Assembly: GCF_000828085.3 (NCBI RefSeq)
Contig: NZ_JXCA02000001.1
Location: 283,296-347,295, forward strand
Reading direction: 5' to 3'
Origin: Scytonema tolypothrichoides VB-61278
GTDB lineage: Bacteria; Cyanobacteriota; Cyanobacteriia; Cyanobacteriales; Nostocaceae
DNA: 64,000 nucleotides
Part shown: piece by piece, positions 43,514 to 48,980 of the stretch
Position numbering within the stretch: position 1 is the stretch's first letter
Layout: every line of letters begins with the position of its first letter
Made by a program: the position numbers and the translations under genes
The notes under the pieces: generated by a model
Seen by the model: only the letters and a program-made list of their open reading frames with translations
Told to the model about the DNA's origin: nothing
Databases searched by the model: none

Positions 43514-43643
43514 CCCTTCGGGTTCGCCCTTCGGGTTCGGCAGTTCCTCATGGGGGAAACCCCCAAGACCGGACTGCCTCACCAGTCGCCTGCGGAGGGA
43601 AACCCTCCCGCAGCGCTGGACTCACATGCTACGTCTCTACATT
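43499..43643. repeat. MITE-like element bridging two convergent stop codons
   Basis: Perfect 16-base inverted ends aatgtagagacgtagc (43499-43514) and gctacgtctctacatt (43628-43643) enclose GC-rich nested palindromes (cttcgggttcg, tgggggaaacccccaag, ggagggaaaccctccc). The left end contains the histidine kinase stop codon; the right end overlaps the rsmH stop codon by two bases. It may serve as terminator for both genes. Confidence 0.8.
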
Positions 43644-44526
43644 ATTCTCTCTGTGCTATTCTCAACTTTGCAGAACGAGCGCGGGGATTATTGACAATTT
43701 CTTCTTCTTGTGCTTCTATCGGCTTTTTCGTCAAGACCTCCAATAAAGGAGAATCTCTAAAACTATGCTTGACGATGCGGTCTTCTAAGCTGTGAAAACT
43801 AATAATTGCAATTCTGCCACCTGGTGCAAGGGCTTTTGGTGCTTTGCTCAAAAAAGTTTCTAGGGATTTTAACTCGTCGTTGACAACAATTCGCAACGCT
43901 TGAAAAACGCGGGTAGCTGGGTGAATTCTGCCGTAGCGGTATTTTGGGGGGACACAGGAGGCGATCGCCTCTGCCAATTCTGTTGTCATGTGAAATGGAC
44001 GTTGTTGAACAATCCGTCTAGCTATGCGCCGTGACAATCTTTCTTCACCGTATTTAAAGAAAATATTTGCCAATTCAGCTTCATCCCAATCATTAATCAC
44101 ATCAGCAGCCGTCAGAGATTGTCGCCTGTTCATCCGCATATCCAAACTTGCTTGGTGGCGAAAACTAAAACCCCGTTCCGATGTATCCAAATGATGAGAG
44201 CTAACGCCCAAATCAGCAAGAATTCCGGTGAACTTGCTCAGTGGGAACTCGTAATTAGCAAAGTTGCTATGAATAAATTTTACACGTTCTCCAAACGCCC
44301 CTAATATCTTTTGCGCCGCTGCCAAAGCGTCCTCATCCTGGTCAATAGCTGTGACATGCACATCGGCTGCAGCCTCTAAAATCAGGCGAGTGTGACCGCC
44401 ACCGCCTACCGTCGCATCCAAATAATGCCCACCAGGACAGACAGCCAAACCCTCAATCACCTGGCGACTAAGAACAGGCACATGAAAAAAATCTTGTACC
44501 TCCATTCCTTGCACGTCATGCTCCAT
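43642..44526 (-). CDS. rsmH: 16S rRNA m4C1402 methyltransferase
   Basis: RsmH/MraW family. Signatures: [14 protein letters not shown], the SAM motif [75 protein letters not shown] and [17 protein letters not shown]. It methylates N4 of C1402 in the ribosomal P site. Start chosen at ATG 44526 ([11 protein letters not shown]); a frame of nine more codons to 44553 is less likely. Converges with the PAS kinase across a palindromic element. Confidence 0.95.
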
Positions 44527-44722
44527 ATAATAATAGTTGAATAAGTGCAACAAAACGAAACATCAAACGAAAACCCTCAACTGCCAACCTCTCTCCAACT
44601 TACCGCTTAGTTTGCACTCTGTGCGACAGCAGTTTGCACCGTTGGGAAAATCCCACGCCAAGTGCTGCCTCGCCTGTGCGGTTCCATTTTAAAATTTTCG
44701 CAAACCGGAGAACACTCTTTTT

Positions 44723-45910
44723 ATGGCAAGATTATTAGAAACCCGCACTGAACCCATGGTGCTGAACATGGGTCCCCACCATCCCTCAATGCACGGGGTG
44801 CTGAGACTGATTGTTACTCTGGATGGCGAGGATGTTATTGATTGTGAACCAGTACTCGGCTACTTGCACCGGGGAATGGAAAAGATTGCGGAGAACCGCA
44901 CCAACATTATGTACGTCCCCTACGTGAGTCGGTGGGACTACGCGGCGGGGATGTTTAACGAAGCTGTCACAGTAAACGCCCCAGAAAAACTGGCAAACAT
45001 TCCCGTTCCCAAACGTGCCAGCTACATCCGCGTTATCATGCTAGAGTTGAACCGCATCGCCAACCACTTACTGTGGTTTGGTCCGTTCCTAGCTGACGTC
45101 GGTGCCCAAACTCCCTTTTTCTACCAATTCCGCGAACGGGAACTGATTTATGATCTGTGGGAAGCCGCCACAGGTTACCGGATGGTCAACAACAACTACT
45201 TCCGCATCGGTGGCGTCGCGGTAGACTTACCCTACGGTTGGGTTGACAAATGTCTCGACTTCTGCGACTACTTCGTGCCTAAAATAGATGAGTACGAGCG
45301 TTTAGTGACCGATAACCCCATCTTCCGGCGTCGTGTTGAAGGTATTGGCACTATCACCCGCGAAGAAGCAATTAACTGGGGACTTTCTGGTCCAATGTTG
45401 CGTGCTTCTGGTGTGAAGTGGGACTTACGCAAAGTTGATCACTACGAATGTTACGATGATTTCGACTGGGACGTGCAATGGGAAACCGCTGGTGACTGCT
45501 TTGCCCGTTATGTCGTACGGATGCGGGAAATGCGTGAATCTGTCAAAATCATCAGACAAGCCATCAAAGGACTTCCCGGTGGTCCCTACGAAAACCTGGA
45601 AGCTAAGCGCTTAGCAGCAGGCAAAAAATCTGAGTGGGATGCCTTTGATTACCAGTACATCAGCAAGAAAATTTCCCCCACTTTCAAAATTCCTAAAGGT
45701 GAAATTTACTCCCGTATCGAAAGCGGTAAAGGTGAACTGGGAATTTATCTGATTGGTGATGATAACGTCTTCCCTTGGCGGTGGAAGATTCGTGCAGCTG
45801 ATTTCAACAATCTGCAAATTCTGCCTCATCTACTAAAAGGTATGAAGGTGGCGGATATTGTCGTCATTCTGGGTAGTATTGACGTGATTATGGGTTCTGT
45901 AGATAGATAA
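44723..45910 (+). CDS. ndhH: NAD(P)H-quinone oxidoreductase subunit H
   Basis: A 395-residue NDH-1 peripheral-arm subunit (NuoD/NDUFS2 homologue) that shapes the plastoquinone-binding site. Signatures: [69 protein letters not shown] and the C-terminal [19 protein letters not shown]. The HRG arginine is Arg50, equivalent by alignment to NDUFS2 Arg85. In cyanobacteria NDH-1 functions in respiration, cyclic electron flow and CO2 uptake. Stands alone apart from the methyltransferase gene 318 bases downstream. Confidence 0.97.
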
Positions 45911-46228
45911 GGAAATTTTGAAATTTTGAACCGCAGATGGACGCGGATGGACGCAGATGTTTTTCTGTTCTATCGGCGTCTATCTGTATGTATTTGGGTT
46001 TGCAATACGTCAACAACTAGGGGTGTAAGGGGATAGGGGTGTAAGGGTATAGGGGTATAAAGTCGAAGAAGAGGGGGAGAAGGGGCTGGGTGAGGGGGAA
46101 AAAAGAGTCAGTGCTTGTTAGTCCTTTTTCTCCCTGTTCCCTGTTCCCTGTTCCCTGTTCCCTGTTCCCTGTTCCCTGTTCCCTGTTCCCTGTTCCCTGT
46201 TCCCTGTTCCCTGTTTTCTTAAAATCTT
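45911..46228. other. Repeat-filled spacer between ndhH and midA-like gene
   Basis: Contains gatggacgcggatggacgca (45938-45957), a G-rich tract (ggggtgtaagg units, 46020-46060), a gagggggagaaggggc tract and the heptamer array at 46131-46214. No gene. Confidence 0.7.
46131..46214. repeat. Heptanucleotide tandem array, 12 copies
   Basis: Twelve uninterrupted copies of tccctgt lie 14 bases before the next start codon. The complementary unit (aacaggg) recurs three times inside the following gene at about 46809-46832. Confidence 0.95.
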
Positions 46229-47470
46229 ATGCCTTCCAATCAAGAACTATGTAAAGCGATCGCACACCGCATCACGACAAGTCCCCAAAAGCGAATCACT
46301 TTCGCTGAGTATATGGACATGGTGTTATATCATCCGGAATATGGTTACTATTCCACAAAGGCGCTAAAGCTGGGAAAGGAAGGTGATTTTTTTACTTCTG
46401 TTCACCTTGGTGCTGATTTTGGTGAGTTGCTGGCGGTGCAATTTTTCCAAATGTGGGAAGTTTTAGGACAACCTGTGCCATTTTCTTTGGTAGAAATGGG
46501 AGCAGGTCAAGGACTGTTGGCGTTAGATGTTCTTAAGTATATCAAGCAGCAGTACCCAGATTTTTTTAATGCTCTGGATTATGTGATTGTTGAAAAATCT
46601 TCAGTTTTGAGGGAAGAACAACAGCAACGTTTGCAAGAATTTTCTGTGCGTTGGTCAAATTTGGAGGAGATTCCAAGTCAGTCTGTTACTGGCTGCTTTT
46701 TTTCTAACGAGTTGGTGGATGCTTTACCTGTGCATCAATTTGTTTTGCAAGAAGGGCGATTACAGGAGATTTATGTGACAACCGGTGAAGAGTCAACGCT
46801 TAACTCTGAACAGGGAACAGGGAACAGGGAACAGTCAAAAATTTCCCTATCTACTTCTACTGCTGTAATATCATTTGTGGAAGTCGCAGATACGCCTTCA
46901 ACAACCAAACTTGAGGAATATTTTGAACTTGTAGAAATAAATCTCAGTTCTTACTGTGATGGTTATCGTAGTGAGGTTAATTTAGCTGCATTGGATTGGT
47001 TGAGTTTAGTGGCAGATCGTTTGCAGCGTGGATATGTGTTGACGATTGATTATGGTTACAGTGCTAGTCGTTATTATAATCCTATGCGATCGCAAGGTAC
47101 GTTACAGTGTTACTACAATCATCAACGCCATAATGACCCATATATTAATGTTGGGAGACAAGATATTACGGCTCATGTTGATTTTACCACTTTGGAACGA
47201 TGGGGTGAGCGCTGCGGATTAGATAAAGTTGGTTTTACGAAGCAAGCGTTGTTTTTGATGGCTTTGGGCTTGGGAGAACGAATTGCTGGTCTATCTTACA
47301 CAGACCAACCCATCTCACAGTTACTGCACCGCCGGGATGTTTTGCATCAGCTTTTGGATCCTTCGGGTATTGGTGGGTTTGGTGTACTGGTTCAAGCAAA
47401 AGGACTAACCAAACAAGAAGCTGCACAACCATTAAAAGGACTGAGTGTGCCAGAGCAAATGCAAATTTGA
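46229..47470 (+). CDS. MidA/NDUFAF7-type SAM-dependent methyltransferase (DUF185)
   Basis: A 413-residue protein of the DUF185 family, whose mitochondrial member NDUFAF7 methylates an arginine of NDUFS2 during complex I assembly. Signatures: FAEYMDMVLYHPEYGYYS, GDFFTSVHLGADFGELLAVQ, SAM motif LVEMGAGQGLLALDVL, GCFFSNELVDALPVHQFV, LTIDYGYSASRYYNP, GTLQCYYNHQRHNDPYINVG, DITAHVDFTTLERW. Residues about 190-202 (NSEQGTGNREQ) come from in-frame expansion of a heptamer repeat in a loop. It follows ndhH, the NDUFS2 homologue, on the same strand. A TnpB element begins right after its stop codon. Confidence 0.9.
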   Translation: MPSNQELCKAIAHRITTSPQKRITFAEYMDMVLYHPEYGYYSTKALKLGKEGDFFTSVHLGADFGELLAVQFFQMWEVLGQPVPFSLVEMGAGQGLLALDVLKYIKQQYPDFFNALDYVIVEKSSVLREEQQQRLQEFSVRWSNLEEIPSQSVTGCFFSNELVDALPVHQFVLQEGRLQEIYVTTGEESTLNSEQGTGNREQSKISLSTSTAVISFVEVADTPSTTKLEEYFELVEINLSSYCDGYRSEVNLAALDWLSLVADRLQRGYVLTIDYGYSASRYYNPMRSQGTLQCYYNHQRHNDPYINVGRQDITAHVDFTTLERWGERCGLDKVGFTKQALFLMALGLGERIAGLSYTDQPISQLLHRRDVLHQLLDPSGIGGFGVLVQAKGLTKQEAAQPLKGLSVPEQMQI

Positions 47471-47774: not shown

Positions 47775-48980
47775 CTATTCTTCTTTGGTAAAACCATTGT
47801 GCTTACTTTTTCTACCAATATTCAACGAACCATTTAAATCACTATTCACCAAATGCCCATCCTTTGTCCTGTACAATCCGCGCTTAATTCGTTTACCAGA
47901 AAACTGGTATTCTTTTGGATTGTCGGCATTGTAAACAGGTATCTCATCACTATCAACCGCACTTGCTTTAGATGTGTAAGATTCTTCCTGCTCTTGATAG
48001 TTTAACCCATATCTTTCACACATTGCTTTCAGCTTAGAACGCAAGCTGTGAAAAGGTATTTGGACAAAGTTTTGATTGTTGCGTCCACCAATCTTGATGT
48101 CTTGTTTGATGCCGGGATTGTACCCAACAATCACATTAGGAATACTGTTGGTGATGCAGTGATTTACAAGAAGTCGTGCTGTCTTATTCAGGTAATCTCT
48201 GACTTGGTTATTGCGTTTTGCCGTCAGCTTCACTTGTTGATTAGTGATGCCTTTAATACCCTGCTTATCTTTAATAGATTGCAGTTGAGCGTTACGCTTG
48301 TTGAACCATTGGTTAATAGATTTAATTGGTTTACCATCCACGAGAAAGGATGCCCCATTGGTATCAACACAAGCAGCGAGATTATCAACTCCCAAATCAA
48401 TACTAATAGCACTATCGTTTTTAGTTTTGATCGGTTTTGGTTCTACTTCGCTGATAAACTCAACCTCAAAATATCTAGCATTATATTTTGGGTGAATTCT
48501 AACTTCCTTAATTTGATGAATGTTAAGTCTTTTAGGGAATGGAATCCAAACTTCACCATACTGCTTTTTAAAAGCATTGGACATTGGAACTCTAAACTTT
48601 CCCTCCTTAACAATAATTCTGGGAATTATCAGCAACAAATACCCGTCCTTAGGCAGATAATTAGGAAGCTTCACTTTTTGTTGATAGCTCCCATTTTTAA
48701 CTGCATTTATCAAACCGTAGAAGCTTTTAAAAGTCCTGTCTACTACCTTCAGTGTTTGCTGTGCAATATCTGTATTGAGAAATTTATAGTTCTCGTTGGT
48801 TTTGCACAGATGGTATGCAGACTCATAACGCAAGTGTTTACGCTCCTGAAAAAAGTATTGCCGCACTGTGTAAAGCCCTACATTGTAGAGGTTTTTGCTC
48901 AGTCGGCACAACTCGCGCAGAGCAACAAAGTCAGACTTATTCAATTCTCTGATTTGGTTCTTTTGCGTCAAGTACATCAA
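47775..48980 (-). CDS. tnpB: TnpB-family RNA-guided nuclease
   Basis: 401 residues. The N-terminal helical part (LRELCRLSKNLYNVGLYTVR) and the RuvC-like domain are typical: first Asp D195 in SIDLGVDNLAAC and last Asp D381 in NSDLNGSLNIGR. At the second catalytic position, usually Glu, the sequence is VIVGYNPG (G286); Glu residues in EQEESYTSKAS (330-333) are candidates for a relocated acid. The CxxC zinc-finger pairs of standard TnpB are absent, as in the subgroup with the EESYTSKAS / FSGKRIKRGLYR motifs. The frame is intact. A second ATG follows the first. Confidence 0.88.
   Translation of the reverse strand: MMYLTQKNQIRELNKSDFVALRELCRLSKNLYNVGLYTVRQYFFQERKHLRYESAYHLCKTNENYKFLNTDIAQQTLKVVDRTFKSFYGLINAVKNGSYQQKVKLPNYLPKDGYLLLIIPRIIVKEGKFRVPMSNAFKKQYGEVWIPFPKRLNIHQIKEVRIHPKYNARYFEVEFISEVEPKPIKTKNDSAISIDLGVDNLAACVDTNGASFLVDGKPIKSINQWFNKRNAQLQSIKDKQGIKGITNQQVKLTAKRNNQVRDYLNKTARLLVNHCITNSIPNVIVGYNPGIKQDIKIGGRNNQNFVQIPFHSLRSKLKAMCERYGLNYQEQEESYTSKASAVDSDEIPVYNADNPKEYQFSGKRIKRGLYRTKDGHLVNSDLNGSLNIGRKSKHNGFTKEE

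Follow-up and report, generated by a model that had tools for sequence, protein, structure and literature searches.

The locus analysed here raises the question of whether the gene directly following ndhH encodes the enzyme that methylates the NdhH protein. The window, a stretch of 64,000 nucleotides from the cyanobacterium Scytonema tolypothrichoides VB-61278 (NZ_JXCA02000001.1, positions 283,296 to 347,295), carries ndhH and, next on the same strand, a gene for a DUF185 protein; this order, described in the earlier note, is confirmed by the open reading frames. The note took the two genes to be an enzyme-substrate pair on the model of mitochondrial complex I, and its premise is sound: in human complex I the methylating enzyme is NDUFAF7, with Arg85 of NDUFS2 as its demonstrated substrate (PMC3829151). 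The target arginine lies in an HRGxE motif and is numbered R85 in bovine and human, R121 in Yarrowia, R65 in Paracoccus and R249 in E. coli NuoCD (PMC3750175, PMC8042128). It is located 3.7 Å from cluster N2 in Yarrowia (PMC8042128) and carries symmetric dimethylation in the complex I of cattle, humans, Pichia and Paracoccus (PMC3750175); methylated arginines are mostly followed by glycine (PMC3750175). E. coli NuoCD conserves the HRG sequence, as NdhH does, but its Arg249 is unmodified (PMC3750175), and unlike the window genome E. coli is among the control genomes with no PF02636 match. Because E. coli retains the arginine in unmodified form, we rejected conservation of this residue as evidence of methylation.

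The ndhH gene, for NAD(P)H-quinone oxidoreductase subunit H (a homologue of NDUFS2, NuoD and Nqo4), occupies 44723-45910 on the plus strand and encodes 395 amino acids. Its product scores 854 bits against the equivalog model NF005649 (cut-off 583) and 810 bits against NdhH of a solved cyanobacterial structure (6hum_H), and the 7.9 Mb genome holds a single match each for ndhH and PF02636. The arginine-then-glycine of the HRGxE loop, a trait of NDUFS2-type substrates of NDUFAF7, is found as Arg50-Gly51 in the sequence YLHRGMEK. The codons of the proposed methylation site and its neighbour, CGG for Arg50 (44870-44872) and GGA for Gly51, together occupy 44870-44875 (+). Judged from the HRGxE motif, Arg50 corresponds to the arginine that is dimethylated in NDUFS2, as the earlier note had proposed, and aligns with R85, R121, R65 and R249. 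The position of Gly51 is Ser or Ala in many cyanobacteria that lack MidA.

The following gene, midA (DUF185, PF02636, COG1565; 46229-47470, +), encodes 413 amino acids and is the proposed NdhH arginine methyltransferase. PF02636 matches the product with 265 bits, against a curated cut-off of 23.3, over the full model (positions 1-249 of 249). When an AlphaFold model (pLDDT 86.8) is compared with the PDB, the first six places all go to COG1565/MidA chains, with TM scores of 0.70-0.76 and the next match at 0.33; the best folds are COG1565 4g67 and 4f3n and Dictyostelium MidA 5zu0 and 5ztz (TM 0.73-0.76). The S-adenosylmethionine-binding motif I (E-x-G-x-G-x-G) is present as EMGAGQG at residues 89-95, and E89, G91, G93 and G95 are found unchanged in every one of the 14 aligned proteins. 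Dictyostelium MidA (5ztz/5zu0) shares its fold and sequence family with the window protein, but is mitochondrial and 24% identical to it over the structural alignment. Residues 189-210 (46793-46858, +) are modelled with low confidence and are mostly gapped in eight aligned relatives; within this stretch, a TCCCTGT heptamer occurs in frame on the opposite strand at 46808-46834.

The two genes do not abut. They are separated by 318 bp (45911-46228), in which 12 perfect copies of TCCCTGT lie at 46131-46215. A scan of this spacer for sigma-70 and terminator consensus sequences gave no match; since shuffled spacers averaged 1.4 and 1.1 matches, the empty scan says little, and co-transcription of ndhH and midA is thus neither shown nor excluded by it. 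In the window the two genes are probably linked through a gene order that has been kept, and not as a tight operon. To the left of ndhH lies a divergent rsmH-like gene (43642-44553, -), which a tblastn comparison of the window protein with the fetched loci also places near ndhH in other cyanobacteria. On the other side, a transposon-type OrfB/TnpB-like reading frame (47775-48980, -; the TnpB name was given by eye) intervenes between midA and a dehydrogenase gene that closely follows midA in several relatives.

The earlier note had suggested checking whether the adjacency recurs across cyanobacteria, and it does. PF02636 was found in 96 of the 194 genomes of a phylum sample, some of the matches outside the class being weak, and comparison of coordinates placed ndhH and then midA on one strand within 1.4 kb in 11 of the 86 class genomes that have both genes. 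They comprise the window's own genome and five more from its family, four from other families in the same order and one from a different order; in the other ten adjacency loci, rsmH lies on the far side in nine and the dehydrogenase gene follows midA in five. Among the 11 we counted G005, in which the contig concerned carries just the 3' end of ndhH. Its ndhH is broken at contig ends (L040, L050, L051), and two contigs end in near-identical N-terminal 80 residues. With the pair absent from 75 of the 86 genomes, and with a 318 bp spacer carrying tandem repeats in the window, adjacency is a weak argument and was set aside as the main one.

Altogether, midA is tied to NDH-1 or complex I genes in four arrangements, ndhH followed by midA being one of them. 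Both genomes of the Cyanobacteriota family f31 (which we take to be non-photosynthetic) that have midA carry it directly before nuoA, nuoB, nuoC and nuoD on the same strand. In three of the four genomes examined from family f25, presumably Pseudanabaena-like (as f21 is presumably Thermostichus-like), and at locus L195, midA follows ndhK-ndhJ, with ndhC also present where the locus extends far enough (L068, L195); the midA locus of the fourth f25 genome, G266, shows no such linkage. Downstream of ndhK-ndhJ in G274 (L269, L270), midA is seemingly split into two overlapping frames. In the fourth arrangement, midA lies directly upstream of ndhH in four of four genomes of the Gloeobacter-like genus g105. 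We also took the best 80 of at least 588 midA loci from bacterial and archaeal genomes, ranked by likeness to an f31 midA. In these 80, nuo or ndh genes are present in the fetched flank of 20, and 11 of those 20 (nine Nitrospirota and two Chloroflexi) have midA ahead of nuoA, with both on one strand. These fractions are not unbiased, because a ranking by likeness to a midA situated in a nuo operon favours loci of that kind.

A further link between MidA and NdhH comes from the residue that follows the arginine. The first two MidA-less cyanobacteria with ndhH that we read, G085 and G193, encode YLHRSMEK. We screened 388 class genomes with a MidA model and two DNA patterns, one for HRG and one for non-Gly residues, the latter blind to Ala; MidA was present in 331 and gave no match in 57. 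YLHRGMEK is encoded in 315 of the 331 MidA-bearing genomes. The other 16 match neither pattern, and the one of these that was read, G135, has YLHRGVEK. By pattern, none of the 331 has HRS without HRG, with 15 matching neither pattern and unread; as the non-Gly pattern cannot detect Ala, some of those 15 may carry HRA. The HRS pattern does occur in three MidA-bearing genomes, each of which also has an HRG copy, and every MidA-bearing genome with a readable motif has an HRG-type NdhH or NuoD.

The 57 MidA-less genomes comprise 41 with only HRS or HRA (39 HRS by pattern; two HRA by reading, G229 and G256), 12 with HRG and four with no readable motif. Seven of the 12 belong to family f26, one of which (G413) has an HRS match besides HRG, and five were judged fragmented or doubtful. 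All 43 HRS matches use Ser codons, and 34 were read inside NdhH; a match in a 44th genome, G056, was dropped, as it codes for Leu and lies far from the ndhH of that genome. G051, of the window's family, has ndhA and no match for ndhH or midA, which looked like a joint loss; its assembly contains a masked stretch, so the loss may be only apparent, and the genome is counted among the four with no readable motif. Fisher's test on 315/0 versus 12/41 gives p of about 6e-44; this value ignores kinship and was not used, as the tree described below leaves two contrasts. The gene order ndhH-ndhA was considered as a trait of the HRS type alone and dropped, the HRG genes of f25 and f26 sharing it.

Second copies of ndhH were met elsewhere in the class. 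Four MidA-bearing genomes (G068, G101, G174 and G185; L171, L172, L160 and L161) have a second full copy, in each case reading HRG. G261, which we take to be Anthocerotibacter, and G269 have two copies each (L156-L159), the divergent second copy reading HRGIEK; at L159 it lies near ndhK.

The Gloeobacter-like genomes bring both residues together in one cell. All four sampled genomes of genus g105 in family f44, which we take to be Gloeobacter (G202 being presumably Gloeobacter violaceus and G222 G. kilaueensis), carry ndhH twice, as an HRG gene and as an HRS gene (HRA in G222). In all four, midA adjoins the HRG gene on the same strand and, each genome having one midA match, it is not beside the HRS or HRA copy. 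A record titled 'Aphanocapsa lilacina HA4352-LM1' shows the same midA-ndhH pair as the g105 genome G242, and a related genome, G252, has a single ndhH, of HRS type, with MidA not found.

An NdhH tree was built with FastTree from 96 rows chosen from the fetched loci. A single clade (support 0.99) holds the Ser/Ala NdhH proteins, along with HRG copies of the Gloeobacter-like genomes and chloroplast proteins; chloroplast NdhH also encodes HRG, and some f26 genomes on the tree have Gly without MidA. Contrasts were counted after 17 rows had been dropped (ten second copies, five doubtful genomes and two chloroplast rows). Only two independent MidA contrasts are present, and the residue follows MidA in 1.9 of the two on average; a sign test on two contrasts is not significant and cannot reach significance at that number.

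Beyond the class, nine of ten MidA-less genomes that were read, chosen from the phylum list, have an HRG NuoD. Three of the ten, from other classes of the phylum (G035, G047 and G053; L315, L313 and L316), of which G035 was read in this copy only, have YLHRSIER in a NuoD-like copy, and resembling copies in the MidA-bearing G007 and G016 read YLHRGMEK. Also outside the class, we chose 20 genomes from the 80 midA loci (the best 80 of at least 588), one of which, L195, is titled as a cyanobacterium. Each of these 20 selected genomes has at least one HRG NuoD, which agrees with MidA needing an HRG substrate. Three of them have a further NuoD copy that reads HTG, as in Thermus. The Nitrospirota were weighed as a further instance of paired NuoD types and rejected; every copy read there is HRG, so that they offer no contrast. 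The association between MidA and the residue is a one-way relation: Ser or Ala goes with the absence of MidA or, in the Gloeobacter-like genomes, with a second copy, and Gly does not prove the presence of MidA. Since HRG prevails in the MidA-less genomes read beyond the class, the converse, that genomes lacking MidA lack Gly, is weakened; the main claim, which rests on MidA implying HRG, is unaffected.

Taken together, we consider it highly probable, as one joint reading, that the DUF185 protein takes the place of MidA/NDUFAF7 in cyanobacteria and that, at an early stage of NDH-1 assembly, it dimethylates Arg50 of NdhH in the way that NDUFAF7 acts on NDUFS2. The sequences show the identity of the genes, the predicted fold, the S-adenosylmethionine motif, the recurrent linkage and the association of MidA with HRG, and from these we infer the activity of MidA on NdhH, the symmetry of the methylation and the role in NDH-1 assembly. 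MidA would use S-adenosylmethionine to dimethylate Arg50 in the YLHRGMEK loop of newly made NdhH. This step would precede the joining of NdhH to NdhK around the Fe-S cluster N2, and the dimethylated arginine would help assembly and tune the site next to N2 and plastoquinone. The enzyme-substrate pair that the earlier note derived from adjacency is thus supported by the four linkages and the HRG association, adjacency itself, lacking in 75 of 86 genomes, having proved thin.

Two other accounts of MidA seem to us improbable, to a similar degree. MidA could act on some other substrate, protein or nucleic acid, its closeness to NDH-1 genes being incidental; a 2025 paper reports that Wolbachia MidA can methylate DNA in E. 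coli (PMC12455994), and most cyanobacteria do not keep the adjacency. Such an account leaves aside the four different linkages to genes of one complex, the pairing of midA with the HRG ndhH in Gloeobacter-like genomes and the link between MidA and the residue flanking the arginine, as well as the demonstrated complex I substrate of the human enzyme (PMC3829151). Alternatively, MidA may bind the HRG loop of NdhH and serve mainly as a chaperone of assembly, with methylation secondary or absent in cyanobacteria. Gene linkage and covariation would look identical under this account, and binding of MidA/NDUFAF7 to NDUFS2 and assembly defects are documented (PMC9006661); against it, the S-adenosylmethionine motif does not vary among the 14 aligned proteins, and a methyltransferase-deficient mutant failed to rescue a Dictyostelium knock-out (PMC9006661).

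A third alternative concerns the covariation only and could hold together with Arg50 dimethylation by MidA: the change from Gly to Ser or Ala and the absence of MidA may be unrelated traits of one group of lineages. We lean against this, while granting it considerable weight in view of the single Ser/Ala clade (FastTree support 0.99), the two independent contrasts and the occurrence of HRG without MidA inside f26 and in nine of the ten genomes read outside the class. It does not readily account for the position of midA beside the HRG copy in all four Gloeobacter-like genomes with both types, for the lack of any HRS-without-HRG match in the 331 MidA-bearing genomes (15 unread), or for HRS in three MidA-less genomes outside the class. 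Another reading, to which we give slightly more credence although still somewhat less than an even chance, is that NdhH comes in two kinds in cyanobacteria, the HRG kind being made and inherited with MidA and the HRS/HRA kind working unmethylated, with Gloeobacter-like species keeping both. One cell of these species would therefore hold NDH-1 with methylated and with unmethylated arginine beside N2. If so, the two complexes probably differ in redox tuning, and Ser or Ala after the arginine would be a mark, readable from the genome, of an unmethylated complex, Gly alone being no proof of the opposite.

Dimethylation of Arg50 by MidA would extend a known reaction to a different complex. The human NDUFAF7/NDUFS2 pair (PMC3829151) has in common with the present case the methyltransferase family, the HRGxE motif and a subunit adjacent to N2, but the target here would be NdhH of the ferredoxin-dependent NDH-1. 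In Paracoccus denitrificans, dimethyl-Arg65 occupies the position of Arg50 in a bacterial NDUFS2 homologue (PMC3750175, PMC11522691), although that complex I, unlike NDH-1, is respiratory, NADH-dependent and alphaproteobacterial. The suggestion in the earlier note that the methylation also occurs in cyanobacteria is supported by inference, but it would not be the first bacterial instance, given the Paracoccus precedent (PMC3750175). A 2024 structure paper states that the modification has been reported in no bacterium besides Paracoccus, and methylation does not come up, under the words searched, in a structure paper on cyanobacterial NDH or in another on spinach NDH. No paper pairing NdhH with dimethylarginine was found in the literature searched. 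The enzyme-substrate pair is already known; in that literature we came across neither an extension of it to NDH-1 nor the Gly/Ser pattern.

So far the modification near N2 has been described in mitochondria and in a single bacterium; its presence in photosynthetic NDH-1 would carry it beyond the mitochondrial line and relatives of that line, and would bring easy genetic systems (Synechocystis, Anabaena) to bear on it. The natural variants, HRS or HRA without MidA and both types in Gloeobacter-like genomes, could help to tell what the methyl groups do from what the arginine does by itself, which earlier work leaves open (PMC8042128).

Two variants of the loop were seen outside these groups. G508, G509 and G512 (L284, L282 and L285) have MidA, one NuoD that reads HTG, with Thr in place of the arginine, and another that reads HRG. 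In the MidA-less family f35 (G077, G096 and G106; L307, L306 and L308), an NdhH-like NuoD reads HRGMEW instead of HRGMEK.
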